64,000 nt of DNA from a virus, in the IMG/VR virus record IMGVR_UViG_3300008116_000054, positions 34,369 to 98,368 of that record. One strand, written 5' to 3'. Position numbers and translations under genes: made by a program. Below are positions 4,481 to 49,172 of the stretch, one piece after another. Under the pieces are notes generated by a model. The model was not told the origin of the DNA. It searched no databases and was given only the letters and a program-made list of their open reading frames with translations. Positions within the stretch are counted from its first letter, which is position 1; every line of letters begins with the position of its first letter.

Positions 4481-6022
4481 TTAAACACAATACATAACAT
4501 ACTTTGCCTGACCTGCGTCATATAGCCTTGTCCATCCAAGTTCTTCTGCGTGTTGTTTCTCTGACAGCAGCCTGTCGTCCATATTTGCGCGACAACGCAG
4601 TCTATTAAACGTATTATGATTGTCTGTCCACTGCCATCCTAAGGTCACAGACATCAAATTAAAACCTACAGCCTTTAAGCTGGAACCGTCAGCGTAGCGC
4701 AGATCTACAAACGACTGAATGAATCGTGGTTTAGATAACGTTTCTATACGCTTCAGAAGACGAGACAATCCGCCCTGAATCTGAAAACCAATCTTTGTTG
4801 CGACTCTGACCAAGTCTATGCCATCCTTGTGACGACGATACGTTATAACCATCATTGGTTCTGAGTTAAGGACCAAAGCAATAGCAGTCGAGCATCTTGC
4901 TGAGCCCATAAGATGGTTGCTTTGCATAAAGGCAGCGGCATCGTCGACCGAGATGCTTTTAACTTCAAGTTTTCTAGCTCCTATCTTTTTGCTTAAACCC
5001 AATACATTGGCGACCATAGAACAGACTATGTCAGGAGTATTCTTTATTTCGTCCTGGCGAAACTGAAGTAGACGCACGTTGTTTTCTTTATATGTATATG
5101 CCTTTTTAATGTGGTATTGTTTGTCGCGCATCGAGTGTGAATATAGTCCGTCTACATCTACATATATAGTTTTATTGTCGTGCTTCAATATGATATCTGG
5201 CCTATATCTAATACCTTTTTCCAGCATCTCTGGGACGCCAAGATTGTAAGCCTCTGCATCTAACCCGCTGTTCTTAAACATGTTTATTGACAGAAGCTCC
5301 AAAGAAGAACGATGTTTATGATAATTATCCAACCAGTCTTGCGCAGCGTCCCATCCAAGCTCTCTAGCGACATTGCGAAGCGAAGTAGGCCTTACTCCTT
5401 TTTCTTTACAGGAATCGACGACTATCCTGCCATCTGGAAAAGATTGAATTCCCTTTTCTCTTAGAGTTTGAGATATAGAACTTGCAACCTTCATTGCTAC
5501 GTCTTTGTTGAGCATAGCATTTTCTACACCGTAGCGTTCTAAGTTTGTCATAGACATCTTTGCGAACACTTCTTTATTTTGACTTGGAGCAGAAGTTCCG
5601 TAGCGGTCAATATTGGTAGACTTGATCTTATCCTTGATATCAGGGCTGCATGCAGGAGCTGCTCCGCCGTATTTGAGCTGATTAGTGGACTTTCTTTTGT
5701 TTTTGGTCTGTTGAGACTTGGAGGCTTCGACTGCCCTTTTTAAGATCTCTGGTCTGTTAGGATCAGACTTCATAGATTGTCTTACTTTTTCAACAATATC
5801 TTCTCTGTACATTGGATTGTTTTCAGAAAAGAACTCTGATTTGTAGCAGCCACAAGACTGAGACTTACCGTGAAGAATAGTGTTGGGCGTCTTTATCAAT
5901 CGCTCTGTTCCACAGTCACACCTACAGATCCATCCAACCTGGCGACCGTCGTCTCCAAGTTTCTTTTCTACGAAAGTCCATCTATTGTATTTATCGTTTG
6001 CTTTTGCTGTAAGTCTAGACAT
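4481..6022 (-). CDS. Homing endonuclease, EDxHD (Vsr-like) type, paralogue 1
   Basis: A 513-residue free-standing homing endonuclease. The N-terminus has a CxC...SCGC zinc-binding segment (about 34-59), then basic repeats with YG motifs seen in NUMOD-type DNA-binding regions. The nuclease core (about 275-345) has the Vsr-like series RPDI, VDVDGLYSHS and RLLQFRQDE, characteristic of the EDxHD family. A C-terminal domain of about 150 residues contains SNHLMG, FVDLRYADG, LGWQWTD and YDAGQAK; the same domain ends the endonuclease at 18867. The gene is more A+T-rich than its neighbours, lies between the capsid terminator and the GT9 gene, and has its own promoter-like GTATAAT at 6040 and a Shine-Dalgarno AGAGGTGAG. 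Confidence 0.85.
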   Translation of the reverse strand: MSRLTAKANDKYNRWTFVEKKLGDDGRQVGWICRCDCGTERLIKTPNTILHGKSQSCGCYKSEFFSENNPMYREDIVEKVRQSMKSDPNRPEILKRAVEASKSQQTKNKRKSTNQLKYGGAAPACSPDIKDKIKSTNIDRYGTSAPSQNKEVFAKMSMTNLERYGVENAMLNKDVAMKVASSISQTLREKGIQSFPDGRIVVDSCKEKGVRPTSLRNVARELGWDAAQDWLDNYHKHRSSLELLSINMFKNSGLDAEAYNLGVPEMLEKGIRYRPDIILKHDNKTIYVDVDGLYSHSMRDKQYHIKKAYTYKENNVRLLQFRQDEIKNTPDIVCSMVANVLGLSKKIGARKLEVKSISVDDAAAFMQSNHLMGSARCSTAIALVLNSEPMMVITYRRHKDGIDLVRVATKIGFQIQGGLSRLLKRIETLSKPRFIQSFVDLRYADGSSLKAVGFNLMSVTLGWQWTDNHNTFNRLRCRANMDDRLLSEKQHAEELGWTRLYDAGQAKYVMYCV

Positions 6023-8867: not shown

Positions 8868-9512
8868 TTAAATTAGTCTGTCTTTCTTGGAAAGATTGTC
8901 AAACTCCCACAGCGGTTGTAAGTTTTTATAATTGCAGGCTTTGTTGAATTCGTCAGGATTCGACAGGTCGAACGAGCTCAATGGAATGATGTGGTCTATG
9001 TTCCATTTTCCATCGCCTTTGCCCCAGTTGTCCCACGACATACCAGGCTGGAACATCTCGGCCAGGTGCGACTTGAGCTCCTCTATCGAGCAGCCAAGCG
9101 AGGACACCGCCGATCCGGTCTTGGCGCAGTTTTTTATCGCGGAGTTTAAGCGAGACCTTATCACCTTCAACATCCTGAAGTTTAGATCATTTTCATAGCG
9201 GTCTTTATAGTACTGCTTGCCGTTCTTCTCGTACCAGGCGCGATTCAGCCCTTTTATTGTATCTTTGTTCTCTGATCTCCACTTGGCATGTTTGGCCAGC
9301 AGCATATCTTTGTTGTCTTTGTAGTAGTCTGATCTTATCTTGCGCTTCTCTTCTTCGGTCATCGGCGTCGGTATGTCGCCCTTGCTGTAGTTTTGCTTAT
9401 AGAAAGCCCTATTGCACTGCTTGCAGGAAGGGCGCTTTCCGTCGGATCTTTTGTTGTCTCCTGCAAAACTATCTAAACTCTTAGACTCTTTACACTTACT
9501 GCACGTCTTCAT
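8868..9512 (-). CDS. HNH homing endonuclease (zinc-ribbon N-terminus)
   Basis: A 214-residue HNH nuclease. The N-terminus is a zinc ribbon with CSKC at residues 4-7 and CKQC near 30. The HNH core at about 125-205 reads LGCSIEELKSHL, then QPGMSWDNWGKG, WNIDHIIPLSSF and NLQPLWEFDNLSKKD, in which the DH pair and final N/H-type positions are the metal site. Its first codons resemble those of the HNH gene at 49169 (both ATGAAGAC-TGCA), so they are paralogues. It sits between the protease and the capsid operon promoter, a typical homing insertion beside conserved head genes. Confidence 0.85.
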   Translation of the reverse strand: MKTCSKCKESKSLDSFAGDNKRSDGKRPSCKQCNRAFYKQNYSKGDIPTPMTEEEKRKIRSDYYKDNKDMLLAKHAKWRSENKDTIKGLNRAWYEKNGKQYYKDRYENDLNFRMLKVIRSRLNSAIKNCAKTGSAVSSLGCSIEELKSHLAEMFQPGMSWDNWGKGDGKWNIDHIIPLSSFDLSNPDEFNKACNYKNLQPLWEFDNLSKKDRLI

Positions 9513-10432: not shown

Positions 10433-11209
10433 TTATAGATTGTACCACTTAGGTTTATCTATCCACTCTCGCCCCAGAAGTTTTTGGCATATGTCTTCTC
10501 CCTCTGGGGTTTTAAAATCATTCTTAGTCCTGTTATCGATCGCCCACATCGGCCTCAAGTTTGTGTAATGCTGTAACTTTATTAGCTCTTCTTCGTTCTG
10601 CGCTTGAGAGCAAGGACATATATGATCGATGTCCCAGCCATCTGGTCCACGTTTGCCTTTATTTTTCCAACTCATGCCAGGCTGCCACAGCGACTCTATG
10701 TGCTTAAGCACTTCGTCTATAGGCATACCAAGCATATCCGCGGATTTTTGAGTTTTCTTATATTGCTTGCCTATAGCCATGCCGATGCACGTCCGCAGCG
10801 ATCTTTTGTAATAGACATGATTCCTAGAGACCGGTCTACAACACGACGATATGCCGCCGCACTTAAAGGATGACTCGTTGAAGCTTTTCTCGCTGCCGCA
10901 AACTTCGCAGCGACAATTGTACGTGCGACCAGAATAAGAGAAAACCACCCATGAACCGTTAGCAAGACCGACTACAGTAGAGCCGCGGGTTGAGTTGTGT
11001 CGTTCTATTGTTTCTCTTATTTTTAAGCAGCCGCAAGATTTAGACTTGCCGTATCGCAGGCAGGCATAGCTTGTTTCGTGTTCTTTTCCGCAGTCGCATA
11101 AGCATTTAAAGCGTCTATTTTGACGATCGGTACTTGTTTCTTCTACGACAACCAGTTGACCAAATCTAGTGCCAGCTTCTATCTCTACGTAGTTCCAAGC
11201 TTTCCTCAT
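10433..11209 (-). CDS. HNH homing endonuclease with two zinc-binding N-terminal segments
   Basis: A 258-residue HNH endonuclease. It has CLCDCG...SCGCL and CRCEVCG...SSCC cysteine groups in the first 115 residues, probably DNA-binding. The HNH region contains LWQPGMSWKNKG, WDIDHICPCSQ and NLRPMWAIDN. A stretch of 24 residues beginning DHICPCSQAQNEEEL is identical in the HNH protein at 20609 apart from its last variable position, so the two are recent relatives. ATG at 11209 is chosen because GAGG lies 5 bases upstream; the in-frame GTG at 11215 falls inside that ribosome site. It is inserted between the protease and upstream genes with its own promoter-like site. Confidence 0.85.
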   Translation of the reverse strand: MRKAWNYVEIEAGTRFGQLVVVEETSTDRQNRRFKCLCDCGKEHETSYACLRYGKSKSCGCLKIRETIERHNSTRGSTVVGLANGSWVVFSYSGRTYNCRCEVCGSEKSFNESSFKCGGISSCCRPVSRNHVYYKRSLRTCIGMAIGKQYKKTQKSADMLGMPIDEVLKHIESLWQPGMSWKNKGKRGPDGWDIDHICPCSQAQNEEELIKLQHYTNLRPMWAIDNRTKNDFKTPEGEDICQKLLGREWIDKPKWYNL

Positions 11210-11218
11210 ATACACCTC

Positions 11219-11697: not shown

Positions 11698-12348
11698 TTA
11701 AGTTCCCTCTCTTTTGTTTTCTTGTGAGGTTTTTAATAAGTGGTCGTTTTCCCAAATAGGCTGAGTATTCTTATAGTTATGCAAATCTAAATTACTATAA
11801 TCTGTACTTAATGGAATTATATGATCTATGTGCCATCCATTTATACCATAGTTTTCCCAAGTCATGCCGGGTAAGAATTTAGATTCTAAGTATTTTATAT
11901 AAAAATCCATAGAGCAACCTAAGTATTCAACAATAGACATAGACTTATTGCTTTTTAATGCTCTTTTGAGTCTACTTTTAATATTTTCACGAATCTTTGA
12001 GGGTGTGTGAGTTTTCTTTCTATTGTTTTGATATTTTATTTTCTTAGTTCTTCTATTTTCTTTCGAGCAGGTTTCACACAATACACGCCTAGATCCTTTT
12101 AGAGCAACGTTTCCGCATGCACATTTTTTAGGCACTTTAGGTCTAAGGACCTTAAGTTCTTTATATTTATTTGATTTTGCTTCCGATATTTTGCGAACTC
12201 TATCTGGATCATTTGCTCTACGAATTTGTTCGTTTATTTTCCAATCTTGTTTTCTTTTATCTTTATAGCAATTGCTACACAGCCTATATCTTTTATGAGA
12301 TACAGGCTGTCCGCATGTGCATTGCTGATTAAATTCTAGATCGCCCAC
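11698..12348 (-). CDS. HNH homing endonuclease, A+T-rich
   Basis: A 216-residue HNH protein, strikingly more A+T-rich than its neighbours, which indicates recent arrival. It has two cysteine clusters (CTCGQ...LCSNC and CACGN...LCETC), then a basic region. The HNH core has YLGCSMDFYIKYLE, LPGMTWENYG, WHIDHIIPLSTD and NTQPIWENDHLLK. The start is GTG with GAGGATT upstream. The first four codons copy the start of the gene it precedes (MGDL in both), and its stop overlaps that gene's ribosome site, so the insertion leaves the target gene expressible. Confidence 0.85.
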   Translation of the reverse strand: MGDLEFNQQCTCGQPVSHKRYRLCSNCYKDKRKQDWKINEQIRRANDPDRVRKISEAKSNKYKELKVLRPKVPKKCACGNVALKGSRRVLCETCSKENRRTKKIKYQNNRKKTHTPSKIRENIKSRLKRALKSNKSMSIVEYLGCSMDFYIKYLESKFLPGMTWENYGINGWHIDHIIPLSTDYSNLDLHNYKNTQPIWENDHLLKTSQENKREGT

Positions 12349-14251: not shown

Positions 14252-16171
14252 TCACTCTTTTTCGGCTTCTGCGGCGGCGTTTATCGGGTTGCGCATGACC
14301 TGGCCTTCTACGCTTCCAGCTCGAGTTGCGCCGTACTGCTTAGCGGATTCCTGAAGCTGCTGTACAGGAGACTCTTGCTTGCTGTGCCGAACCGCTGCCT
14401 GAGCATCTGCTTGTTTTTGTTTTTCCGCTTGGCCGTCAGCTGCCTGTTGTTGGGATTCTAACTGTTGCTGCTGCATTTCCATCTGTTGCTGCTGTTGATC
14501 TTTTGCTTCTTTATGGGCCTGCTTTGTCATAAGCAGATTTTGAAATTGAAGGAACATAGGATCGCCTGGTAGATATTTTAATTCATTTCTATTTGTTGCT
14601 CCAGTATCACCCAGAAAGAACTCACGTTGCTCTCCCTTGGTCATCATCTTGTCTACAAGAGTCCAGAACGACTGATTAAGAGGAAGATCTGCAATTGGAT
14701 GACTAAGGGGTTTTTTGTCTTCATTTTTCAGAAGATCGTTCATAGAAGCAAAAACTGTCTGCTGCGCTTGTCTGAGCGATATATCTGTCTGAGGTGTATC
14801 GTCCGTGTAGCCTACGAACTTGAACTTATAGCGCTCTGCCAGCGTTTTGTCCAGCGCAGGAACGACATCTTGGTTTATCAGGTCCTCGATGAAGAACAGT
14901 ATCGGCAGCAGACCACGCTCGCGAGAGTACGTGATCTTGAACTGGCCTGACTCTTTGGCCTGAGAGGCCGCGCGACCGTTCGCCGTGGTAAGGTAGTCGA
15001 GGCCGACCTCGATGGGGTCGATCTGGAACTGCGCGCATATGCTTCGCATGATGTGGGAGTTGAAGTTGATGTACTCCATCTCCTTGGCCGAACCAGACAT
15101 CGGTATCCACTGCACGTCGTCTAGGCCGGCGACTATAGGCGTCCGCCAAGCATTGTTGGATCCTGATATAGTGTTGTAGAACTGACGACGGAAAGATGCA
15201 AGAGTGTTCTGAGTAACCGTGCCCTTAAGGTGTAGTATTCCTCGTGCAGCGTAGCCATGGGTGAAGTAGTTCGCATTGTATGATTCCACGTTAAGGTGGT
15301 TCGTGATCATTATCACCGACTGCTCGACCATGGATATGGCGTAACCGTTCGAGTCTGCAAAGTTCTTGGGATTGAACAGCTTGAAGATCATGTCCTCGTC
15401 GCCGAAGACGTTGAGGACTCGGTTGTCGACCGACTGCTGGACGTACTTGAAGTACTCGATCTCGGGCGTGTTTACGTGGCCGCGGTTAGACGAGTCGTTG
15501 TCGGATCTTTTCTTGTGATACAGGTCTACGGCGACCTTGGCCTGGCCCTCTACCGTGGCTCGGTTGATGTTGGGGTTTACCTTGTAGACCGTCTCCGCGG
15601 GCAGGGGACGGAACCTGTGAAGGCCGCCTTTCCTGGTCAGGACCTTCTCGCACGCGATGTGGCCGAAGCAGAGCGCGTCCCACACGATGAGCTTGACGAA
15701 CTCGCCGAAGAGCATCTCCTCGCCGCGAGGCGTTCCGTCTATGCGACCGCAGTGGTAGACGAAGTCTTCCAGCATGCGGATGTTGTCGATGTCTTCCTGA
15801 GACATGGCCGAGTGGTCTGTCTTGACGAACTTGTATCCCATGTCGAAGCGCTTGTGCTGGGGGCGAGAGAACCTCAGGACCGTATCGCAGCGGATCTGAA
15901 GGATCGTGTTCACGAGCCAGTCGCGCATCGATATCTCGCGCAGGGTTCTGTTAGATATGCGAGAGACCCTGCTCTTTGAGAGAAAGTAGTTGTGGACCGC
16001 GTGGTCGTAGAACGGGTCGGTCAGTATGGCCTTGGCGCCTACGAGCTCGCCGGTGCCCGGCTGACTTTGGGATTTGTCTGGCGCGTCGTCTGCGTCGACT
16101 TTTGTTAAGTCCTCTATGTCCTTGCGAATCGAGTCGGTAACCGCTTTCTTGATATCTTCAATCCAAGACAT
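14252..16171 (-). CDS. Portal protein
   Basis: A 639-residue protein immediately after the large terminase, the classic portal position. The middle shows portal-family flavour: SMRDWLVNTILQIRCDTVLR, LIVWDALCFGHIACEKVLTR, FRPLPAETVYKVNP, DMIFKLFNPKNF, and a late SREGLLPILFFIEDLINQDVVP stretch. The C-terminal 100 residues are very glutamine-rich (QQQQQMEMQQQQL), likely a flexible or coiled tail facing the head interior. It should form the dodecameric DNA entry ring that binds terminase and the neck. It is preceded by a promoter-like site at 16201. Confidence 0.88.
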   Translation of the reverse strand: MSWIEDIKKAVTDSIRKDIEDLTKVDADDAPDKSQSQPGTGELVGAKAILTDPFYDHAVHNYFLSKSRVSRISNRTLREISMRDWLVNTILQIRCDTVLRFSRPQHKRFDMGYKFVKTDHSAMSQEDIDNIRMLEDFVYHCGRIDGTPRGEEMLFGEFVKLIVWDALCFGHIACEKVLTRKGGLHRFRPLPAETVYKVNPNINRATVEGQAKVAVDLYHKKRSDNDSSNRGHVNTPEIEYFKYVQQSVDNRVLNVFGDEDMIFKLFNPKNFADSNGYAISMVEQSVIMITNHLNVESYNANYFTHGYAARGILHLKGTVTQNTLASFRRQFYNTISGSNNAWRTPIVAGLDDVQWIPMSGSAKEMEYINFNSHIMRSICAQFQIDPIEVGLDYLTTANGRAASQAKESGQFKITYSRERGLLPILFFIEDLINQDVVPALDKTLAERYKFKFVGYTDDTPQTDISLRQAQQTVFASMNDLLKNEDKKPLSHPIADLPLNQSFWTLVDKMMTKGEQREFFLGDTGATNRNELKYLPGDPMFLQFQNLLMTKQAHKEAKDQQQQQMEMQQQQLESQQQAADGQAEKQKQADAQAAVRHSKQESPVQQLQESAKQYGATRAGSVEGQVMRNPINAAAEAEKE

Positions 16172-16200
16172 AAAGTCTCCAATAATATGCGCTTTTATTT

Positions 16201-16207
16201 ATTATAC
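16201..16207 (-). promoter_or_regulatory. GTATAAT promoter-like site of portal
   Basis: Minus-strand TTGATAAGTATAAT, 29 bases upstream of the portal ATG, in the short gap after terminase. Confidence 0.5.
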
Positions 16208-16210
16208 TTA

Positions 16211-18874
16211 TCAAAACGTCCAAAGAAATCCACCGTCTACAGACTTATCGTCTTCCTCGTCATCGATCTCAGACAGCCTTCCTATTTTACCAAGCTTATC
16301 GGCATTAACCTCTGGATTAAACGGCAGGTTGTTGAGTTTCGCGTACTCTTCTGGAGTGGGCGCCTTGAAGAAATTTCCATTGTTATCAACCAGTTTTGCC
16401 ATATCGACGTCCAAACCGGCAGATGAAAGCACGATCTGGTTCTTGCCGAAAAGGTTCGTCAGCGGGTATCGTAAAGCATCCAGCCAGTGATCGTGCTCGC
16501 TGTCTGGAGTGTCTGATATCTGGCCAGCGGCATCGGTTTTGTAGTGGTAGAGCTGGAACTCCCTTATCAGAGCCTGACATGTCTCCTGAGCAATGAAAAG
16601 CTTAGACTCGGCAGTGCCTGGAATCTTGAGCCACTTCTTTATGATCTGTATGCCGGTGTTGATGTTTCCCTTGTCTGTGTTTGTCGAAGTCGGAAGGCCA
16701 AGCTTCCTCATCTCTACTGCGTCACCAGGATCCGCTTGGTCAGGAAAGTAGAGTTGGATACGGTATGGCTGATGCCACTTGTTCTTGATGTGGTGCATCC
16801 ACGTGGGCCTTGATATATACGTCATGCCGTCGCATCTTACGACGTATATGTTCTCTTTTGCGTCCACGAAAAATACCACGAGCGTGTGCGGGTTTGACCA
16901 TCCCCAGTCGATGCCGGCGTACGCTGGAAGACCCATGTTGTGACAGTTGCCGCTCAGCGATATTACTCCGTTGCGGCGAACAAATAACCTAGACGAGGGC
17001 ATCGTTACACAATAGACCATTCCATCGTAGTCTACTTCACCTATGTTTCCTTGTGTTTTATTAGAATATTCGCTCTTGTTGGTTCCGTTGTTGATGTAGT
17101 ACGAACGATCTGCTGGCTTGTTGTTTGTCTTAAAGTGAAAATTAACTCTAAAACGTCTTAGGTACTCAGTCCCTGTGTTCTTGTGCGTTTTGCCTTGATT
17201 ACCCTGCATTGAAAGAGAACTCTTATATCCCAATCTAAAGCATAGCTCTTGAACATCGTTGGCAAGCTGCTCAGAGCCTGTTGAATAATAAGGCTGTTGC
17301 CTTGATCCGTCGAACATGTACGAGCCGTCCCCGAAGCATAGCCACTCCAAAAGGATCGATAGCTGCCTGCGGGAAGCTTGTTCAAGTATGTTCCTAGATA
17401 TCAACTTGTTGACGGCAAACTTTAAAGGCTTTAAGTAATTATATAGTTCTTTGTTGTATACGGACCAGTTTGTCGTATAGTCAACCTGATCCCGAGCATC
17501 AGACTCTCTGTGAAGCTTGTTGGGCCAAGCTATCGATGCCATAAGCCGCTCAACCTTGTCAGAGGCGTCTCTGCTCTTAGACTGAGAAACCTCTACCTTG
17601 TTGTGCCCCCACTCGTCGTTTGCTCTTGTCGAACTCATAGAGCCTTCGCTCAGCCAAAGCCCCATGAAGGCCATAAACTGATCGCCGGTCATGAAGCTTA
17701 TAGGAGATTTTATGTCCATGTTGTTTGCTGTAGAGCCGGAAAGCCAGGTAGCCGGTATGTAAAAATCGTTCAGCTCGTCAAGAGAGTCTGCTCGCTGCTT
17801 CAAAAGCTTTATCTCTTGCTTCTTTCTGAAGTTTCTACCGTGAAGGTACTCGACATCGTGGTTGGGAGTAACCAGAAGGTCGAGATGGTGCTTGCCTCCG
17901 CCTATCTCATTGTAAAGGTTTACCATCTTTCCCTTATAGTGATACGAGATGTGCTCTATCGGTTTCTGGTAGTTTAACACACCACCGTTGTCTAGGGTGG
18001 CTAGAGTGTCATACTCAGTAAGATCTTTAAAAAGCTTAAAGCCGTTGTTCGTCAAAACCTCAGTGTCGTCACTGAAGCATTTCTTGACGAATATATCGTG
18101 GTTGCACTCGCCAGGAAACTCTTTTCCGGTCAGCGACAACCACATCTGGTTCCAGGTCTTGACGTGCATGCGCTCGTCGAACTCTTTGTAGATGATCCCC
18201 TCGACCGACGGCTTTAGATTCATCAGCTGGGACATCGCCCAGTCAGGACCCTCTGACAAGACCTTCTGCGCGAGCTCGTCTATAGACTTGAGCATCGGCG
18301 ATTCTGAGACTTGATTCTTGGCGTCGCCGAGGCATATAGGAGCGAGTGGGCATTTCCCGCAGCCTATGTACATCTCGTATCTCTCGTACTCTTTCTTCCT
18401 CTGCTCGCCGAGCTTCTCGAACTCTGACGGAGATCTCACGTCGAACGACTGCTGATCGATGTAGTATTCTTGGCGCTGCGTTCCAGATCGTGAGTCTGGG
18501 CATCGCTCGGTGAACTCAAATGCGGTCCAGCGACGAACATGTCTGCCCTGCTTCTCGGCGTTCTCGATGGCTTGGTTCATGAGACCGTATCGCGACTTTC
18601 TGGTCGATATGCCCACGCGCAGCGGCTTACGGCCGCGCTTGGAGTCGAGCATACCGGAGATTTCTTTGTAGGCGCGTAGGCCCTCACCGGAGACTGTATC
18701 AATCTCGTCCACCACGACCAGCGGCACGTGTGGTCCATTGCAGTTGTGGTTGATGGTGCCGTCAGCTGTAACAAACGAATTTGACATCGGATTGGTCGGA
18801 TCGTCGCTTGAACGAACCTCCAATTTCGCTATTTGCTTTATGCCCGTGCGCTCGATTTTCGTTACCTTAGCCAT
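16211..18874 (-). CDS. Large terminase, C-terminal precursor: split-intein C half + ATPase/nuclease + contiguous intein
   Basis: This 887-residue product is the second piece of a fractured terminase. Residues 1-44 are the C half of a split intein ending in INHN, with Cys45 as the +1 residue. The extein then gives PHVPLVVVDEIDT (Walker B, about 49-60), a cysteine cluster C172, C175, C181, and KPSVEGIIYKEFDE. Residues 266-643 are a contiguous intein. After Cys644 comes the nuclease domain, AYAGIDWGWSNPHT with the first Asp, and SEHDHWLDALRYPL with the last metal ligands. Host sequence is 221 + 244 residues. ATG at 18874 has GAGG 5 bases upstream and overlaps the stop of the preceding endonuclease gene. 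It works with portal to pump and cut DNA after trans-splicing to the product of 21387-23642. Confidence 0.9.
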   Translation of the reverse strand: MAKVTKIERTGIKQIAKLEVRSSDDPTNPMSNSFVTADGTINHNCNGPHVPLVVVDEIDTVSGEGLRAYKEISGMLDSKRGRKPLRVGISTRKSRYGLMNQAIENAEKQGRHVRRWTAFEFTERCPDSRSGTQRQEYYIDQQSFDVRSPSEFEKLGEQRKKEYERYEMYIGCGKCPLAPICLGDAKNQVSESPMLKSIDELAQKVLSEGPDWAMSQLMNLKPSVEGIIYKEFDERMHVKTWNQMWLSLTGKEFPGECNHDIFVKKCFSDDTEVLTNNGFKLFKDLTEYDTLATLDNGGVLNYQKPIEHISYHYKGKMVNLYNEIGGGKHHLDLLVTPNHDVEYLHGRNFRKKQEIKLLKQRADSLDELNDFYIPATWLSGSTANNMDIKSPISFMTGDQFMAFMGLWLSEGSMSSTRANDEWGHNKVEVSQSKSRDASDKVERLMASIAWPNKLHRESDARDQVDYTTNWSVYNKELYNYLKPLKFAVNKLISRNILEQASRRQLSILLEWLCFGDGSYMFDGSRQQPYYSTGSEQLANDVQELCFRLGYKSSLSMQGNQGKTHKNTGTEYLRRFRVNFHFKTNNKPADRSYYINNGTNKSEYSNKTQGNIGEVDYDGMVYCVTMPSSRLFVRRNGVISLSGNCHNMGLPAYAGIDWGWSNPHTLVVFFVDAKENIYVVRCDGMTYISRPTWMHHIKNKWHQPYRIQLYFPDQADPGDAVEMRKLGLPTSTNTDKGNINTGIQIIKKWLKIPGTAESKLFIAQETCQALIREFQLYHYKTDAAGQISDTPDSEHDHWLDALRYPLTNLFGKNQIVLSSAGLDVDMAKLVDNNGNFFKAPTPEEYAKLNNLPFNPEVNADKLGKIGRLSEIDDEEDDKSVDGGFLWTF
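16946..18079 (-). other. Contiguous intein in terminase nuclease domain, with LAGLIDADG-type endonuclease
   Basis: 378 residues, positions 266-643 of the C-precursor. It starts with Cys in CFSDDTEVLTNNGF (block A) and contains TPNHDVEYL (block B). Two LAGLIDADG-like helices follow, FMAFMGLWLSEGSM and LLEWLCFGDGSYM. It ends with VYCVTMPSSRLFVRRNG and SGN before the +1 Cys644. The penultimate residue is Gly instead of the usual His, as in a minority of inteins. The insertion point lies 12 residues before the first catalytic Asp of the nuclease. Confidence 0.9.
18743..18874 (-). other. Split intein, C-terminal half (IntC, 44 aa)
   Basis: Residues 1-44 of the C-precursor. VTKIERTGIKQIAKLEV matches block F, and SFVTADGTINHN followed by Cys matches block G with the catalytic His-Asn pair and +1 nucleophile. 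It lacks block A and B, which are found at the end of the gene at 21387. The length agrees with natural split-intein C halves (about 35-45 residues). Confidence 0.9.
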
Positions 18875-20525
18875 CTGAACCTCTGTCAACGCTTAAGACC
18901 ATCTTCGCCTGACCCGCGTCGTAGATCTTGACCAAGCCAAGCTCTTTGGCGTACTCTTTCTGTGTCAATTTTCTCTCGTCCATGTTAGCCTTGCAGAACA
19001 GACGATTGTAGGTCTTGTCGTAGTCGGTCCACTTCCATCCCAGCGTGGTGCCGACGTGCACGAAGCCCATGTCCTTGAGCGAGGCGACGTCGCCGTACCG
19101 CAGGTCGACGAACGTGTAGATCTTATCTATATCGAACGTCTTTATAGCATACTTGAGCAGCTTGGAGTAACCGCCAACGACCACGGTGCTCAGCGCAGAA
19201 GCGAACCTTACTATTTTTACTTGACTGCCCTCGAACCTTAAGGAGAGCAGGACTTTTATCTGATCTACGTCCTTGAGGGCCAGATACACGGAAGCGGACG
19301 CGAACCCCATGAGATGGTTGGCCTTGAGGAAGGTCTTCGCCTCCGGTGCGGTCACTTGTCTTATATCAAGCTTCCTGGCATGGAGTTTATCTTTCACCGC
19401 GCCAGCCTTTACCGCTATCATAGAGTCGACGATCGACCGCTTGTAGATCACCTCGTCTGCCCTGAACTGCAGGAGCCTTAAGTTAAACTCTTCTGCTTTT
19501 AGCCTTGCCTTCAGGTGGTATTTCTTGTGTAATGTTTTGTCCGAGTGCCAGTATAGACCGTCGACGTTGACGTAGACGCGATCGGAGACCTTGAAGTCAG
19601 GTCTTATGTTGCATCCTTTTGCCGGGAACTTATCGAACCTTGATAACATAGGATTTGAGCTCATTAGCGTTTCTATGTCGCTCATGGTAAAGTGCTCTTC
19701 GACTAGGCTGATAAAATCGCTCTCCGTAGCTGGTAGGTGCTTGGCATAGATCTTGCACACGAACGAGTAGCTTATCTTGTCTGCGAAGTTGAGCTTCCAT
19801 ATATCTTTGATGGATCTTCCGTCTAAGCTCTTAGCTACGCCGATCTCTTGAAGTTTTCGTAGCCTATCCGCTGGATCCGCCTTTGTCCTTTTAGATCTCT
19901 TTCTCTCGTTTAGTCTTAATCTTCTTTCGGCTCTGGTCTCTTCTTTCTTCTTCAAGGCCTCAGGGCTAAGGAAGCGGGACCTGTTCTTGTCTATCGTCTC
20001 TGGCAGGAGCAGCGGAGTGGACACGCCGTACCGCTGGAGGTTCGTGCTCGCTATGTCGTGGTATTTTTCCTTTATCCTCTGACTCATCTTTGCCCTGAAG
20101 TCGTCTGTGGTGTGGGTCGACGCACGGCTGTCCGACAGCTTCTTAGACTTTCTTCCAGGATGAGACTGACCGTAGAAAGCAACCTTGTACACCGGAGCCC
20201 ACCACTCTCCGTGGTCTACGTCGATGAACTTGGCTTTCTTGTTGGAGGAAGAGTACGAGCTTGGGTCTATAAAAACTAGACCTTGATGGTTTGTATCGAG
20301 TGCGGCGATTATGTCCGCAAGCGATATCTTTCTTCTATTGGGGTGCTTTTGGCCGCATGTGACCACCTTCGTAGGCGTCGCCCACCACTCTCCGTGGTCT
20401 ACGTCGATGAACTTGGCTTTCTTGTTCATGCCGCAGAAGGTTGAGACGTCTATAGACACTAGGCCGCCGTGCTTCTCCAGCAGAAGCTGCCGTATCTTGT
20501 CTGGTGATGTCCTGACGTTAGACAA
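18867..20525 (-). CDS. Homing endonuclease, EDxHD type, paralogue 2, between split-intein halves
   Basis: 552 residues from the TTG at 20525, chosen because AAGGGG lies 6 bases upstream; the frame is open to 20570, but that part overlaps the promoter-like sequence. The N-terminus carries two DUF723-like DNA-binding repeats, each with KKAKFIDVDHGEWWA, 61 residues apart. The nuclease core has IRPDFKV, VNVDGLYWHS and LRLLQFRADE (Vsr-like, EDxHD). The C-terminal domain (ANHLMG, FVDLRYGD, LGWKWTD, YDAGQAK) matches the endonuclease at 4481. Its stop overlaps the IntC start (18867-18874). In known fractured genes this nuclease class sits between split-intein halves and probably cuts the uninterrupted allele. 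Confidence 0.85.
   Translation of the reverse strand: MSNVRTSPDKIRQLLLEKHGGLVSIDVSTFCGMNKKAKFIDVDHGEWWATPTKVVTCGQKHPNRRKISLADIIAALDTNHQGLVFIDPSSYSSSNKKAKFIDVDHGEWWAPVYKVAFYGQSHPGRKSKKLSDSRASTHTTDDFRAKMSQRIKEKYHDIASTNLQRYGVSTPLLLPETIDKNRSRFLSPEALKKKEETRAERRLRLNERKRSKRTKADPADRLRKLQEIGVAKSLDGRSIKDIWKLNFADKISYSFVCKIYAKHLPATESDFISLVEEHFTMSDIETLMSSNPMLSRFDKFPAKGCNIRPDFKVSDRVYVNVDGLYWHSDKTLHKKYHLKARLKAEEFNLRLLQFRADEVIYKRSIVDSMIAVKAGAVKDKLHARKLDIRQVTAPEAKTFLKANHLMGFASASVYLALKDVDQIKVLLSLRFEGSQVKIVRFASALSTVVVGGYSKLLKYAIKTFDIDKIYTFVDLRYGDVASLKDMGFVHVGTTLGWKWTDYDKTYNRLFCKANMDERKLTQKEYAKELGLVKIYDAGQAKMVLSVDRGSDG
20197..20243 (-). repeat. 47-bp perfect direct repeat, copy 1
   Basis: Identical to 20380-20426. 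The 183-bp period equals 61 codons, so both copies encode the same DUF723-like motif. Perfect identity, including third positions, implies recent duplication or gene conversion. Confidence 0.95.
20380..20426 (-). repeat. 47-bp perfect direct repeat, copy 2
   Basis: Second copy of the repeat at 20197-20243 inside the same endonuclease gene. The flanking sequence between copies is diverged. Confidence 0.95.
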
Positions 20526-20526
20526 T

Positions 20527-20556
20527 ATAATCCCCTTAGTGCCATAGGGATTATAC
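20527..20556 (-). promoter_or_regulatory. GTATAAT promoter-like site embedded in an inverted repeat
   Basis: ATAATCCC (20527-20534) and GGGATTAT (20547-20554) form a perfect 8-bp inverted repeat; the minus-strand -10-like GTATAAT (20550-20556) lies in one arm. This is an operator-like arrangement 25 bases upstream of the TTG start of the endonuclease. Confidence 0.5.
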
Positions 20557-20608
20557 CCGATATTTATCAATTAGCCTTGATTACGGTGCATTTTTTTTAC
20601 AAAGCAGC

Positions 20609-21406
20609 TCATGGACCAATCCACCCCCTTCCCAGAAGCCTACTGCACGATGCTATTGCTTGCTCCGTAGCAGTGTCACGCTTTGCGAAGTTCTCGTCTT
20701 TCCACATCGGGCTAAGGTTGGTGTAGTGCTGCAGCTTTATGAGCTCTTCTTCGTTCTGAGCCTGAGAACAAGGACATATGTGGTCGATGTGCCAGCTACC
20801 AAAGTTGTCCCACGACATCCCCGGCTGGAACAAGGACTCCAGGTGTCTTCTAACTCCCTCTATGTTGAGCCCCAACAGCTTCTCGGCCTTGTCGTTCTTC
20901 TTGTAGCGCCTGTTGATCGAGTTGGTTATCCTCACCCTTATGCCGCGCACGAAAGCCGTTTCTGGATCGAATATCTTCCAGTGTGAAAAACAAAGTTTAT
21001 GCTTGAAGGCATTGTTGTCGCATGAAGCATGGGAGCATTTCTTTTTAGGTTGCCTAATTCGCCACGCTTGATAATGCGTGCCACATAAGCCTTTTTTCTC
21101 AACCTTCTTTGTGCACCCAGAAATTGAGCACTCTGGGGCCTGTTTTAGTTTGTTGGCGTTGTAGTGCACAGAACAAAGCCCGTTGTGCTTTGCATTTTCT
21201 TTGCAGTCATATTCGGAGCATCTAGGTCGAGTTGCAAATCTATCTTTATCGTAATGGGACCTACACATGCCCCTGCGAAAGATAGAGGAACCACACTTGG
21301 TGCAGCCTTTATCTAGGCGGCATTCCTTGCACGTCGTGTAGACATTCTTGTAGAGAGGCTTCTGGCAGGATTCACAGTAGTCGGCTTTACGCTTTAACTT
21401 CTGCAT
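20609..21406 (-). CDS. HNH homing endonuclease with tandem zinc fingers, between split-intein halves
   Basis: 265 residues from ATG at 21406, which overlaps the stop of the terminase N-precursor by 20 bases; the in-frame upstream extension lies entirely inside that gene and is rejected. It has a CESCxK...CKEC pair and then four fingers: three with the spacing C-x4-C-x9-C-x2-H-Y/W (CSEYDC..., CSISGC..., CSHASC...) and one C-x2-C variant (CTKCG...). The HNH core has LFQPGMSWDNFG, WHIDHICPCSQ and NLSPMWKDENFAKRD. The same finger pattern appears once at the very N-terminus of the terminase. The HNH half is closely related to the gene at 10433. It probably targets the terminase locus. Confidence 0.85.
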   Translation of the reverse strand: MQKLKRKADYCESCQKPLYKNVYTTCKECRLDKGCTKCGSSIFRRGMCRSHYDKDRFATRPRCSEYDCKENAKHNGLCSVHYNANKLKQAPECSISGCTKKVEKKGLCGTHYQAWRIRQPKKKCSHASCDNNAFKHKLCFSHWKIFDPETAFVRGIRVRITNSINRRYKKNDKAEKLLGLNIEGVRRHLESLFQPGMSWDNFGSWHIDHICPCSQAQNEEELIKLQHYTNLSPMWKDENFAKRDTATEQAIASCSRLLGRGWIGP

Positions 21407-21686
21407 GCGCTCGCGTTGAGGTGCTTTCCAAGGATGAGATCTCGTCGGCGTCGGTGAGGTGCTGAAGCTCGATCCATCCGCGCTGGGTCCAGACTTTGTG
21501 GTCGAGGGTTCCTTCGATGACTCTTCCATCTTCTAGCTCTATCCTTATGCACTCGGCGTCTTCTAGCTCGTTGCCGAGGACCTCGACGAAGCCGGTGGTG
21601 TCTTTGATAAAATCGCCTGGCTTGAAATCTGCCAATGATCTTATTGTACCATGCACATCGGTTGACGTAGCGGAGGAAACCAGGCA
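21387..21686 (-). other. Split intein, N-terminal half (IntN, 99 aa)
   Basis: Residues 653-751 of the N-precursor. It begins Cys653 in CLVSSATSTDVHGTIRSL with ADFKPGDFI (block A) and has VIEGTLDHKVWTQRGWIEL (block B, with the T-x-x-H motif). It then ends after a short tail at the gene's own stop codon. There is no endonuclease domain and no block F/G, and the following gene is a different protein, so the intein is genuinely split. Confidence 0.9.
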
Positions 21687-23642
21687 CGCTCGCAGCGTGC
21701 ACGGGAGCACTTCAAGTGTGACTTTCTCACTCTTGATGTTGAACACTGACTTCTCCATCGTCATCTTCTCTAGGATCTTGTTCTCTTCGCTGACCTTCGG
21801 TGGGTTCACTATCGGCTTTATTCGGTCTGAAAGAAGGAATTTCTGCTGATACTCGTAGCATCGTTTTGCCTGAGAAAGGATCGCGCCCACGTGCACCACA
21901 TCGCGCTGATCGTGCATCAGCACTAGAAGCTCAGCTATGGCCATGCCGAGGGTGTTGTGGCTGATGAAGCCGTTCGACCAGTACGCGTGATCGACGTCTA
22001 CTTCAAGATCGTAGAAGTAATGTTTGCCAAAGGCAACTGAATCTACGGTCTCGTAACACCCCCTCCTGACGAAGGAAAGGTAGTCGGCCCAATCATATTC
22101 CTCTAGGCGTTTCGCTAGATCTATGAAATAATCGATCTTGTAACCGTAGACATAAAGCTCCTTAGCCTTCTCGCCAGATCCCCAAAGATCTTTAGAATAC
22201 TTTATATCGGAGTGGGTCTTTTTTCCCGCCTCGAGACGCCAGTATCCATTCGCGATCTCATACTTGTCTTTTATAAAAGATGCAAAGGGTTTCAACAATT
22301 TAGACGGATAGCGAAACTGCTCGTTCATCTTAGCGCTGTAGATCTTGAAGGCCTCGCGCTTAGAGAACAATGGCATCAAATATTCTGGTAGAGCGGTTTT
22401 ATAATCGACGCAGTGATACTCCACTACGTGGTCTTTAACAAACTTAGTTGTAGAAGGCTTGCGTCGTTTTTTGTTGATGACGGCATGAACACCGAATAAA
22501 TTCAAAATCTGAGCTATTTGTTTTATGAGCTCTGGATTGGCTAACGTTATCGAGTCTTTGGAGCCATCGGTCTCCATCATTCCAGATATAAAACCAGCCA
22601 GAAAACTTGGACTATGGTTCAATGTCTTCAGCTTTTTGAAATAGCAGAGTTCGCCCTCGATAATGGAGTCGCAGTATTCTCTTAAAGCCTTGCTACAGAT
22701 ACCAGCTATACTGAGATTTGGCGATCTTTTGTCATATTTCACTTTTGGTTCTACGCCAAAATGTTTGACTATAGTATCTATATATATTGCTAATTGATCT
22801 TTATCTTTTGCGGCAAAAGATATGGCATTATCAAAGCGACTAACAGAACCATCTCCGGTTATGCAGCCAACAAGCCATCCTAGTTCGTAATCGTTAGAAG
22901 ACGTGTCTACTAAGGCACCTAGTGACTCTAAGGACCTATAGATCAACTGGCCCGGAATAAGATTTTTCATGTAGACCCAGTCGATCTTGCCGGTCTCGGG
23001 GTCAAGGGCTTGAACACGATGCTTTAAGGAACCAGTCAAAGACCATGCGCCATCTTTGGTAAGATGTTTGGTAGTAATGGTTACGCCATCTTTAATGCCT
23101 TCGTCAAAAGTTTCGACCACGGGTTTCCAGGACCAGCCGGTCCAAACTAAATCGCCAACCTTAACGTTTTGTACATATTTGGTACCACTATTGGTAATGA
23201 TTACAGTATCTTGCGAAACGCACTTACCGCTGCCCCTTCCTGCAACATACAGTAATTCTTGGATATTTTGCGGATTGTTGTTGTTCGTGCATATGTCGTA
23301 CACGTCCCAAACTGCATGAAAAGGAGTGGTGTCTGCATACCTGGAGACCTTGCAGTCTGGCAGGTGTAGGTTGAAGAAGTACCGGATAAAGTTCTTGAGG
23401 TCTTTCTCCGTGCGGCACGGCGTTAGCAGTATACGCTCCAGCTGCTCTGGCGTAAACTTGGACGCGTTCTCTGAGATCTTGCGGTTTATCACCTCCTGGC
23501 GCGCAGCCTTGGTCTCCTCGATCTTCTTCTGCTTGATCTTTGGTCGGTCGATTATAGACTTATAGTGCCCGGTGCAGTAGCCTCTGGACTTCAACGGTTT
23601 GCTGCAGCCTTCTACGGTGCATGTCCTGTTCTTACTGTCCAT
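21387..23642 (-). CDS. Large terminase, N-terminal precursor: Walker A + contiguous intein + split-intein N half
   Basis: 751 residues. Residues 1-30 hold a zinc finger (C8, C13, C23, H26) not usual in terminases. ELLYVAGRGSGK (129-140) is the Walker A loop and is interrupted straight after its Lys by an intein (141-563); Thr564 resumes the host protein (TLGMAIAELLVL). Host residues 564-652 end LEVLPCTLRA. Residues 653-751 are the N half of a split intein. The partner half starts the gene at 16211, where the host reading resumes as C-NGPHVPLVVVDEID. Mature host content is 140 + 89 residues. The ATG overlaps the putative small terminase gene by 11 bases. Without both cis- and trans-splicing no ATPase can form. 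Confidence 0.9.
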   Translation of the reverse strand: MDSKNRTCTVEGCSKPLKSRGYCTGHYKSIIDRPKIKQKKIEETKAARQEVINRKISENASKFTPEQLERILLTPCRTEKDLKNFIRYFFNLHLPDCKVSRYADTTPFHAVWDVYDICTNNNNPQNIQELLYVAGRGSGKCVSQDTVIITNSGTKYVQNVKVGDLVWTGWSWKPVVETFDEGIKDGVTITTKHLTKDGAWSLTGSLKHRVQALDPETGKIDWVYMKNLIPGQLIYRSLESLGALVDTSSNDYELGWLVGCITGDGSVSRFDNAISFAAKDKDQLAIYIDTIVKHFGVEPKVKYDKRSPNLSIAGICSKALREYCDSIIEGELCYFKKLKTLNHSPSFLAGFISGMMETDGSKDSITLANPELIKQIAQILNLFGVHAVINKKRRKPSTTKFVKDHVVEYHCVDYKTALPEYLMPLFSKREAFKIYSAKMNEQFRYPSKLLKPFASFIKDKYEIANGYWRLEAGKKTHSDIKYSKDLWGSGEKAKELYVYGYKIDYFIDLAKRLEEYDWADYLSFVRRGCYETVDSVAFGKHYFYDLEVDVDHAYWSNGFISHNTLGMAIAELLVLMHDQRDVVHVGAILSQAKRCYEYQQKFLLSDRIKPIVNPPKVSEENKILEKMTMEKSVFNIKSEKVTLEVLPCTLRACLVSSATSTDVHGTIRSLADFKPGDFIKDTTGFVEVLGNELEDAECIRIELEDGRVIEGTLDHKVWTQRGWIELQHLTDADEISSLESTSTRAHAEVKA
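21954..23222 (-). other. Contiguous intein in terminase Walker A, with LAGLIDADG-type endonuclease
   Basis: 423 residues (141-563 of the N-precursor). CVSQDTVIITNSG is block A and TGSLKHRVQAL block B. LGWLVGCITGDGS and LAGFISGMMETDGS are the two LAGLIDADG helices. YDLEVDVDHAYWSNGFISHN is block F/G with a His-Asn end, followed by Thr564. It sits inside GRGSGK-T, the nucleotide-binding loop. Confidence 0.93.
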
Positions 23643-24243
23643 CGTCGTCTACCTGCACGAGCTGCTCAAGGAGCATGGCCTCTTCTGACTTTGGCAGAAG
23701 CTTCTTCGTCGACTTAGTCTTTACCACCCTCGCCTCCTGCTGCGCGTTCGGGTTGGTGAGCGAGCGGACCGAGTCGGTGACCTTGGCCAAGGTGTCGATG
23801 ACCTGCTGGTACTCTTTGAAGTTCTTTATGCGCATGTTCGGCAGCGGGTTGTTCTTGGGATCGTCAAGGAACTTCCTTATCTCGTCCGCGTTCTCGACCG
23901 ACGAAACGGTTATCATGTCGGTCAGGAACTCGACCTGCTCTACGGTGGACCTGATTATCCTGGCCCTGATGCGGTCGTATATCGAGCTCGCCAGCCTTTC
24001 CTTGTCCTTCACCCATCCGCCGGCGGCAGCCGTGTACAGTATGCGCGACTTGGAGTACTGCGGAAATCGAGCGGCAAGTTCCTCGGTGCTGTAGCCGATC
24101 AGGAACAGCTCGTATATCGGTGATGCTTCTTGTTTGTCTATCGCGCCTGACGCAGTCGGCTGACGAAGGTAACGCTCGATCTCTGCGATCTGTTCACCGG
24201 TCAGCCCGTGCTTCTGCTCCGAGCTTAGCTTTTTCTTCGACAC
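23632..24243 (-). CDS. Putative small terminase subunit
   Basis: 203 residues directly upstream of the large terminase and overlapping it by 11 bases. FLIGYSTEELAARFPQYSKSRILYTAAAGGWVKDKERL (about 47-84) has the look of the N-terminal helix-turn-helix of small terminases that bind the packaging site. The rest is helical, with a long amphipathic stretch at 85-165 suited to oligomerisation and a basic/acidic tail. The start is GTG. The assignment rests on the HTH and position, not on a confident family match. Confidence 0.65.
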   Translation of the reverse strand: MSKKKLSSEQKHGLTGEQIAEIERYLRQPTASGAIDKQEASPIYELFLIGYSTEELAARFPQYSKSRILYTAAAGGWVKDKERLASSIYDRIRARIIRSTVEQVEFLTDMITVSSVENADEIRKFLDDPKNNPLPNMRIKNFKEYQQVIDTLAKVTDSVRSLTNPNAQQEARVVKTKSTKKLLPKSEEAMLLEQLVQVDDDGQ

Positions 24244-40744: not shown

Positions 40745-41493
40745 CAGAATCTTATCCCCAATGATAGGCCTGCTCTATCATTAGATATACCCCCTCTATC
40801 ATACGAGGCACCTACGTAGACAGGTCCCCAGAAGGTGTAATGGGTCTCTACAGTGTACTGTCTGTCGGTGTTGAGTCCTAGTCCTAGCGCAAACGGTCTA
40901 GGATTAGACGTCGTTCTCGATGTCTTCTCGCGCTCTTCCTTTAGCAGACTCTCGCTCTTGTTAAGCTCCAGCGAGAGCTTGTCGATCTTGGTCTGAAGAA
41001 CGGACGTCTTCTCGTTGAGCTCTCTGGCGTGCTCGAACTTGAGCTTAGACACTGTGTCCACGATCTTCTCCTCGGCCTCTCTCTGTATCTGAGCGATAAC
41101 TTGAGTCTCAGACTCGAGCTCGGAGGTCGAGATGGTCTTTCTTTCCACGGTGCCGTCTGGATGGACCTTCTCTACCGTGACCATCTTGGTCTTCTGCTTC
41201 AAGGAAGAGTTCTCGGTGGACAAAGAACTGATCCTCGTCGTAAGCTCTTGCTCACGCCTGAAAGATTCTTGCCTAACGGTCTCGATATCTTTCTGATGCG
41301 TCTCGCGCTCTTGCTTTAGGGTCTTCTCGGACTCTTGAAGCTTAGACTCATAAGATGCGCGAGTTTCATTAAGGATCTTTTCCTTCTCTACGATCGACGT
41401 CGATTCACTAGGATAGAGCAAGATCGTCATGGCGATGCCTGCAAAGAAGACTATGGCGTATCTAGCGTACTGGTTGTTTAGGATAGCAATCAT
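40744..41493 (-). CDS. Membrane-anchored coiled-coil protein, 249 aa
   Basis: One N-terminal transmembrane segment (YAIVFFAGIAMTILLY), then about 150 residues of coiled coil with TV/E/K heptads. The C-terminal 45 residues have alternating glycine/aromatic strands (ALGLGLN, THYTFWGPVYVGASY), similar to phage proteins predicted to sit in the envelope. It overlaps groEL by 4 bases. Spanin-like or membrane-organising roles are possible; no family assigned. Confidence 0.55.
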   Translation of the reverse strand: MIAILNNQYARYAIVFFAGIAMTILLYPSESTSIVEKEKILNETRASYESKLQESEKTLKQERETHQKDIETVRQESFRREQELTTRISSLSTENSSLKQKTKMVTVEKVHPDGTVERKTISTSELESETQVIAQIQREAEEKIVDTVSKLKFEHARELNEKTSVLQTKIDKLSLELNKSESLLKEEREKTSRTTSNPRPFALGLGLNTDRQYTVETHYTFWGPVYVGASYDRGGISNDRAGLSLGIRF

Positions 41494-48124: not shown

Positions 48125-49172
48125 GCCTAAGATAAACTCAAAGGTCGAGCTTTTCGAGGCCAAGCAGGAACTCGAGAAGGCGAAGGTTCAGGAAGGCATC
48201 GCGAAGCTGAACCAGAAGAAAGCCTTGCAGGAAAGACTCGAGAACTACTCGCTTAGCGAGATCGAGGCCCGCAAAGGCTCGGGCAACGCCAAGCGCCTGG
48301 TCGGCATACTTGAGCGCGACGCGGACCTGATTCGTAAGGCGGTGCCTTTCATAAACTCTGCCCTGAGCACGGTATGCCCGCTGTGTCCGGGTGCCGTGTA
48401 CCTGATGGGTGCTGCCTCAGGCACGGGCAAGTCTACTACGACGGCCGCGATCGCACACGGGCTCTACGCGCAAGGCATGAGGTCCTTCATCGTCTCGAAC
48501 GAGGAGACGGAAGCAAAGATCATCGCGCGCGTGGCATGCGTGGACCTCGGCATCGACTTCAACCTCTACATCCAAGACAAACTACCGGCGAGCTTCAGGA
48601 AGCAGATCGCACACAAGATCCTGGAGATCGAGCCGTACGTCACGGTGATGGACGATCCCATAGCGAGCACGACGCTGGAGAAGATCGAGTCAATCCTCAA
48701 GGAGGTGAACGAGTCCGGCGCCTACCAGGCGGTCATCGTGGACTTCCTTCAGCGCATCAACAAGTCAGTGGTGGTGCCAGGCATCGAACGGACGGATGCC
48801 CTATACCGATTCAAGGATCTGATCACGGACTACGCACAGTACGCAAAGACTCCGGTGATAGTGATGACCCAGCTGATCCCGATATCGTCAGACGAGACAG
48901 AGAGAAACGTTGAGACGCGTATAAAGTGGGTTCGCGGGTTCTACGAGGCCGCCGCCGCCGTGATCGAGATCATAAAGGTCAAGGGCATACCGGTATCGAA
49001 CTTCTACGTGGCCAAAGGCCGCTTCTCAAAGGCTGAGGTCACCGTGTCCTGTCGGTACGAGAACGGCAGGTTCACGTACGTCTCAAAGAAGGAACTTCAG
49101 GAACTGAAGGATCAGGCCCAGATAGACGCGATAAACGACATGGTGTCGAAGATGGATGTTGAAGAGCCATGA
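48117..49172 (+). CDS. Replicative DNA helicase, DnaB/gp41-like RecA-fold ATPase
   Basis: 351 residues. A basic coiled-coil N-terminus (1-45) is followed by CPLCPG (87-92) and Walker A GAASGTGKST (98-107). Then NEETEAKIIARVACVDLGID and Walker B AVIVDFLQR are found, with VIVMTQL, the polar motif before the final arginine finger region. It is shorter than DnaB because the usual N-terminal primase-interacting domain is replaced by the coiled coil. It is inferred to unwind the fork with the primase at 46325. Overlaps its neighbours on both sides. Confidence 0.85.
   Translation: MSEPKINSKVELFEAKQELEKAKVQEGIAKLNQKKALQERLENYSLSEIEARKGSGNAKRLVGILERDADLIRKAVPFINSALSTVCPLCPGAVYLMGAASGTGKSTTTAAIAHGLYAQGMRSFIVSNEETEAKIIARVACVDLGIDFNLYIQDKLPASFRKQIAHKILEIEPYVTVMDDPIASTTLEKIESILKEVNESGAYQAVIVDFLQRINKSVVVPGIERTDALYRFKDLITDYAQYAKTPVIVMTQLIPISSDETERNVETRIKWVRGFYEAAAAVIEIIKVKGIPVSNFYVAKGRFSKAEVTVSCRYENGRFTYVSKKELQELKDQAQIDAINDMVSKMDVEEP

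Follow-up and report, generated by a model that had tools for sequence, protein, structure and literature searches.

A phage large terminase gene broken at an apparent split intein, with nested genes that differ among close relatives

Layout of the broken terminase gene

We analysed a 64,000-nucleotide stretch (the window) of a 108,514-bp IMG/VR virus record (IMGVR_UViG_3300008116_000054), in which the gene for the large terminase subunit (terL, product TerL) is broken by an insert of 2,944 bp at 18743-21686, minus strand, just ahead of the Walker B codons. The insert comprises, in order, the N half of an intein (IntN), an HNH gene, a second nuclease gene that we take to be of the EDxHD type, and the intein C half (IntC). 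The original prediction, made from the letters of the sequence, placed the insert and the two precursor genes correctly; open reading frames (ORFs) and alignments also bear out its claim that IntN starts at Cys653 and that IntC ends in INHN followed by Cys. The features of the locus are the following.

21387..23642, minus strand: TerL N-precursor, a 751-aa ORF starting at ATG, in the order extein 1, intein 1, extein 2, IntN; matches LAGLIDADG_3 (1.4e-9) and TIGR01445 intein_Nterm (7.7e-5, residues 694-719)
21954..23222, minus strand: intein 1, contiguous, LAGLIDADG type, splitting GRGSGK/T (Walker A); TIGR01443 intein_Cterm at 0.00034, above the cut-off
21390..21686, minus strand: IntN of the split intein by alignment, 99 aa (Cys653-Ala751), with Cys1 and block B GTLDHKV
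20609..21529, minus strand: HNH gene, 306 aa; phrog_5351 HNH endonuclease (2.1e-7), zinc-finger-like Cys/His motifs by eye
18867..20525, minus strand: EDxHD-type homing endonuclease gene, 552 aa; phrog_3339 homing endonuclease (1.2e-38, on the 567-aa ORF)
18743..18874, minus strand: IntC of the split intein by alignment, 44 aa, ending TADGTINHN, with Cys at +1
16211..18874, minus strand: TerL C-precursor, 887 aa, starting at ATG; phrog_5653 terminase large subunit (1.2e-20)
16946..18079, minus strand: intein 3, contiguous, LAGLIDADG type (LAGLIDADG_3, 4.3e-6), before the GIDWG strand of the nuclease domain

The C-precursor runs IntC, extein 3 (Walker B), intein 3, extein 4 (nuclease domain), and a single 694-residue TerL thus holds three inteins, after residues 140, 229 and 450 (Walker A and B were assigned by eye). 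At the split, the host sequence reads LPCTLRA/C-NGPHVPLVVVDEID; insert-free relatives read through it continuously and in frame, which bears out the exact closure originally claimed for the host sequence, with Cys at the +1 codon in some of them and another residue in the rest. Of the two contiguous inteins, intein 1 has an unoccupied site in relatives such as loci L011 and L063 (L numbers are our handles for loci), and intein 3 has a 91% relative in L004. The terL region is flanked, on the minus strand, by a small ORF (23632-24243) and a portal gene (14252-16171).

Eight near-identical IMG/VR contigs of the window locus, from seven metagenomes, were available. The whole insert is present in four contigs of four metagenomes (L003, L006, L007 and L008); three others (L001, L002 and L040) hold one side of it only, and L005 holds only the C-terminal exteins and intein 3. 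An assembly slip was rejected as an explanation, since four contigs carry the whole insert and four more carry parts or flanks.

The N terminus of TerL (23484-23633, minus strand) contains a zinc-finger-like stretch that matches the HNH endonuclease family phrog_5351 (residues 4-53, 2.6e-6). A similar HNH-like match lies inside extein 1 of the insert-free relative L014, and the stretch therefore seems to belong to this terminase clade.

The split intein and its natural alleles

Related loci were collected by six IMG/VR scans with terminase or intein queries, one genome scan and three other loci, 239 in all, including L125 and L126 from the window's own record and L127 from Myxococcus phage Mx1. 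We used the 203 of these that carry exteins 2-4, the remaining 36 being fragments or other genes; once repeat fetches were collapsed, 80 distinct terminases remained. Three scans were limited to the best 80 of 184, 198 and 183 candidates, which leaves distant relatives under-sampled. At the split site, 67 of the 80 terminases are empty at the exact position and 13 are occupied, a ratio that is not a frequency, since two scans were queried with IntN itself and favour occupied sites. Seven of the occupied alleles (L011, L013, L030, L045, L056, L057 and L072) are known from one contig each.

Intein-free terL at this site, which the original prediction proposed to look for, is therefore at hand in the 67 empty alleles. 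An intact intein, sought alongside it, was not found among the 13 occupied alleles, and a contiguous form was rejected for all of them: two different ORFs encode the halves, and the break falls between blocks B and F, with an IntN of 84-108 aa ending after block B. All 13 have Cys at +1, the first codon past the insert, while in the 67 empty alleles this codon specifies Cys (38), Val (18), Leu (9) or Thr (2). Because protein splicing needs Cys, Ser or Thr at +1, this intein would be unable to splice in 27 of the 67, except where conversion supplied the Cys codon as well.

A search for a named phage with the cassette gave matches in 82 phage records, all below 60% identity and all short of 80% query coverage. 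In Myxococcus phage Mx1, where the neighbouring genes are similar, TerL is contiguous and lacks the insert. Three TerL relatives (L128, L129 and L130) lie on contigs binned with Saprospiraceae, Cytophagales and Flavobacteriaceae metagenome-assembled genomes, hinting at Bacteroidota hosts for the wider terminase clade.

Class 1 inteins are marked by Cys1, a block B TxxH, a C-terminal Asn and a nucleophile at +1, and the window intein has the whole set. Cys1, the block B His, the terminal Asn and the +1 Cys are kept in 13/13 distinct occupied alleles even though the inteins diverge to 38% identity; in L085 the block B TxxH reads SKDH. Retention of the splicing residues in such diverged homologues led us to reject a chance origin of the motifs. 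With a profile of the joined halves from 12 loci, the best solved structures were the NrdJ-1 intein (8ubs, 1.3e-7) and the gp41-1 intein (6qaz, 2e-7), and all 12 profile members match TIGR01445 at E <=0.1, the window's own member scoring under the curated cut-off. These results support a class 1 split intein akin to NrdJ-1 and gp41-1, whose halves would be expected to splice in trans.

Other ways of obtaining a working terminase from the two genes have to be weighed. If the halves formed a two-subunit enzyme without ligation, the intein pieces would be relics; a phage reductase left as two working peptides by insertion of a nuclease gene, reported in PMC10448857, offers a parallel. Relics would decay, whereas here the four splicing residues are kept in every occupied allele, and the break falls between Walker A and Walker B of a single ATPase fold; we regard this alternative as very unlikely. 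Joining by RNA splicing or frameshifting, for which we found no supporting point, has next to no probability: there is no Rfam match at E <=1 within 16000-24000, the C-precursor begins at its own ATG behind AGAGG, and a shift could not span two ORFs that take up 2.5 kb. The original proposal, a terminase gene fractured at a split intein whose halves enclose HNH and EDxHD nuclease genes, is thus upheld by the motifs, the split-intein homology, the occupied and empty alleles and the lack of an Rfam intron.

Fifteen distant IntN matches (L180-L194), read by eye, were set aside, as they sit in other genes or at other TerL sites. Seven of them (L180, L181, L182, L185, L188, L192 and L193) are terminase-like ORFs whose IntN-like tail sits elsewhere, close to a C-terminal N(D/N)H motif, and which terminate shortly past block B (by eye); they have the look of further split inteins in TerL. 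In L183, the Walker A region (DKTRQ/C...HN/CGMST) of a seemingly unrelated terminase holds a contiguous intein that has LAGLIDADG-like motifs, again by eye.

Nested genes and exchange of the cassette

The genes between the intein halves vary. A homing endonuclease gene is present in 10 of the 13 distinct occupied alleles, window included. HNH and EDxHD genes occur together in two, the window type and L056, so that the two nuclease genes predicted in one insertion are real and recur, although the protein at the EDxHD position of L056 is 38.5% alike over 192 residues only. Four alleles have an EDxHD gene alone (L011, L072, L047 and L059) and two an HNH gene alone (L045, and L085 with an endonuclease-VII-like HNH, tested on its copy L084). 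The EDxHD gene is antisense in two further alleles, alone in L057 and with an HNH gene in L013; the latter is a mosaic, its HNH being 78% like that of the window and its antisense EDxHD 56% like that of L057. Nucleases were called by PHROGs (window, L013, L057, L058, L045 and L084) or by identity to the window genes (L011, L046/L047, L072 and L056).

The other three alleles hold different genes. Two carry a DNA polymerase X (PolX) gene and a gene of no known family: L069 (copies L051, L052, L053, L067 and L068; six metagenomes) and L073 (with L010; two metagenomes). The PolX proteins (179-182 aa) consist of palm and thumb, as judged in L067 and L073, which match PF14791 at 1.6e-8 and 3.3e-12 and PF14792 at 1.6e-5 (25.5 bits, cut-off 25) and 6.6e-5 (23.6 bits, below the cut-off), respectively; a two-row profile matches Pol lambda at 4.9e-7. 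Both proteins have DxD at 49/51 and Asp103, presumably the PolX Asp triad. The partner protein (299/292 aa) has no family in Pfam or PHROGs, and the model of the 299-aa form (pLDDT 52) is too poor for use. In IMG/VR, pattern scans, which can miss distant relatives, place PolX and its partner ORF at eight loci each, all within the cassette, and neither has a match in 50,697 phage records. The third allele, L030, encodes a trypsin-like protease (247 aa, PF13365 1.5e-6) whose N-terminal part, by eye, includes a hydrophobic stretch. We also looked for nucleases and PolX elsewhere in such records, which may be fragments. No further EDxHD gene was found in the PolX and protease records L067, L073 and L030, in a search that matched L057, L059 and L007; HNH elsewhere in four records and PolX in four insert-free relatives gave no match either, in sets that lacked a known-match record and show little.

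The terminase tree requires eight changes in occupancy of the site, at least seven of these forced by starred branches. L045 and L069 have 98% identical exteins and 76% identical inteins, with HNH versus PolX as cargo; the window and L073 have 92% identical exteins and 60% identical inteins, with HNH plus EDxHD versus PolX. By contrast, the pair L011/L072 is 97% identical in exteins and 97% in inteins. Since terminases this similar carry diverged inteins and different cargo, whole cassettes appear to have been exchanged, including ones without a recognised nuclease. A vertically inherited intein that merely evolves fast, with no transfer of cassettes, would fit the observation that cargo identity broadly tracks intein identity, and it would account for the clustering of occupancy on the tree; we consider it unlikely, since the inteins of these two sister pairs are 24% and 40% apart and their cargo is not the same either, while L011/L072 show no such gap, and since the tree calls for so many occupancy changes.

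The DNA around the site was compared between L069 (PolX) and the empty L066, which are 94-96% identical over blocks of 2.5-7.8 kb. Near the site they diverge: the 60 nt that directly follow it are 78% identical and the 87 nt that directly precede it 59-72%, whereas 60-nt windows of 100% identity start ~480 nt downstream. This is the pattern that conversion around the site, in either direction, would leave.

We think it quite probable that terL is a fractured gene rejoined by a trans-splicing split intein and that the insert is a homing cassette that exchanges its cargo. Several observations weigh against this. The TIGR01445 match of the window's own N-precursor (23.6 bits) falls under the curated cut-off of 24.5, and the joined window intein, as a single sequence, has only weak matches in the Protein Data Bank (PDB), that to 6qaz (0.094) ranking behind a chance-looking one at 0.029. 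The penultimate His is absent in two of the 13 alleles (Lys in L059, Ala in L085), and these inteins may be slow to splice. The three alleles with PolX or protease have no recognised nuclease, so that self-encoded homing could at most be inferred there. Intein 1 is present in L066 only, not in L069, and the diverged tract may reflect its transfer; other pairs also vary at the end of extein 2, several having 57-68% identity there. Finally, occupancy is clustered on the tree, with the eight changes comparing with a mean of 12.3 under shuffling, and inheritance is therefore partly vertical.

The anatomy, the splicing motifs, the empty and occupied alleles, the variety of cargo and the discordant divergence of inteins and terminases can all be read in the sequence, and a homing cassette of this kind would work as follows. 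The two precursors would be translated separately, the cargo would be expressed, and inteins 1 and 3 would leave by cis splicing. IntN and IntC would come together and, by trans-splicing, join Ala652 of the N-precursor to the Cys after IntC to give the 694-residue TerL. Insert-free terL would be the target of the window HNH nuclease, the EDxHD nuclease or both, with a cut close to the Walker B codons; recombination by the phage would then copy IntN, cargo and IntC as one, together with flanking DNA. Once split, the intein would no longer constrain its interior, and the gap could therefore gather and swap genes: nucleases in most sampled lineages, the PolX pair or the protease in others.

A broader proposal, to which we give even chances, is that a split intein in an essential phage gene serves as a general cargo slot that also hosts non-nuclease genes and whose cassettes move as units between phages. 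Damage to the intein halves would kill the phage, as the packaging motor must be rejoined, while the interior would be free to host a minimal polymerase X with its partner or a trypsin-like protease, some units being without a recognised homing nuclease.

The window nucleases and known systems

The two nuclease genes had been described as overlapping the genes of the intein halves by a few bases. That holds for the EDxHD gene and the C-precursor, which share 8 bp; the EDxHD gene has no contact with IntN, and the HNH frame starts 143 nt within the IntN gene (the overlap would shrink to 20 nt if the internal ATG at 21406 were used). The most likely EDxHD start is TTG 20525, behind AAGGGG. The HNH ATG is formed, in the +1 frame, by conserved Asp-Gly codons of IntN in 5/5 distinct HNH-bearing alleles, and the frame stays open past the IntN stop in 5/5 HNH-bearing versus 0/8 HNH-less alleles, the nearest of the latter (L011 and L072) having 31/33 codons open. 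Under synonymous shuffling, the chance of an open +1 frame is 2-13% per HNH allele and 0-16% per HNH-less allele; a closed frame is thus the expected state in the eight HNH-less alleles, and the signal rests on the five open frames, whose chances multiply to 3e-7 if the loci were independent, which they are not. L013 and L056 have no further ATG ahead of the first zinc-finger-like cysteines (TTG codons are present), and the HNH start therefore likely lies inside IntN, at least in these two. If so, the nuclease gene is tied to the intein half. The window HNH protein had no match in Pfam and NCBIfam.

The EDxHD protein has no Pfam family above the cut-off and no PDB sequence match at E <=1; in an alignment of seven rows, the blocks RPD, DGLY.HS, YH and QFR are invariant. 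An AlphaFold2 model (pLDDT 73.5, seven-sequence alignment) begins with a pair of similar ~60-residue repeats, followed by a helical linker, a nuclease region and a C-terminal domain. The last (model residues 385-552) resembles GNAT acetyltransferases (5isv_A, Z 14.8, rmsd 2.7 over 130 residues), and phage Mu Mom ranked third in Foldseek (1.3e-5); no nuclease fold is among the matches listed for the 552-aa model, the list being filled by the GNAT-like domain. This GNAT-fold domain (18867-19376, minus strand) makes the protein a nuclease fused to a possible DNA-modification domain. By description, the N-terminal repeats may recall the 60-residue CapR-like domains that PMC12350094 reports ahead of the EDxHD/Vsr-like domain of nucleases from phage group II introns.

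Five further ORFs in the window, one of them EDxHD-like and the other four HNH, resemble the nested nucleases, with 33-55% identity where they match: 4481-6022, 8868-9512, 10433-11215 and 11698-12348 (minus strand) and 49169-49870 (plus strand). They suggest a phage rich in homing-type genes. A GroEL-like chaperonin is encoded at 41490-43193 (minus strand; phrog_5725, 1.8e-95).

Fractured genes holding split inteins and EDxHD nucleases were reportedly described by Dassa et al. in 2009, and NrdJ-1 and gp41-1, the nearest inteins here, presumably belong to that set. As in those genes, the host gene is broken at a split intein with a nuclease gene between the halves; unlike them, the site is the Walker B region of terL, two nuclease genes lie together, and relatives carry an antisense nuclease, PolX or a protease. 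In the names AceL-TerL, GOS-TerL and Cat-TerL, TerL denotes a terminase host, and by name these too are naturally split terminase inteins. Their IntN is 25-37 aa long (PMC11766414); the 99-aa window IntN lies outside that range, which sets it apart from the atypical AceL-TerL and GOS-TerL inteins. Phage MIJ3 likewise has an HNH gene between the halves of a split PolB intein (PMC6892783), although its host gene is not terL and a single nuclease is reported there. Collaborative homing and homing endonuclease gene islands, as described in PMC10448857, resemble this locus in the turnover of nucleases beside a splicing element and in mobile neighbouring cargo; they involve introns and free-standing nuclease genes, whereas a split intein is found here.

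The case for novelty is weaker than originally claimed, as split TerL inteins, and a split intein with an HNH gene in MIJ3 PolB, were already published; the more unusual features are those of the relatives. In the literature searched, which included few subscription papers, we came across no description of non-nuclease cargo in a split intein, of a pair of nuclease genes sharing one split intein or of cargo being exchanged at a single split-intein site. The basic arrangement is a further fractured gene; what is new about the set of loci is that cargo appears to be exchanged, that some alleles have no recognised nuclease and that the HNH frame overlaps IntN.

The 13 occupied and 67 empty alleles are natural variants of one split-intein site, at which the nested gene is swapped among close phages. 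They make the origin and upkeep of fractured genes testable, with respect to mobilisation by nucleases, retention after nuclease loss and useful cargo in inteins. The locus also supplies an HNH frame that opens inside an intein-N frame and, for protein engineering, several diverged natural split-intein pairs.

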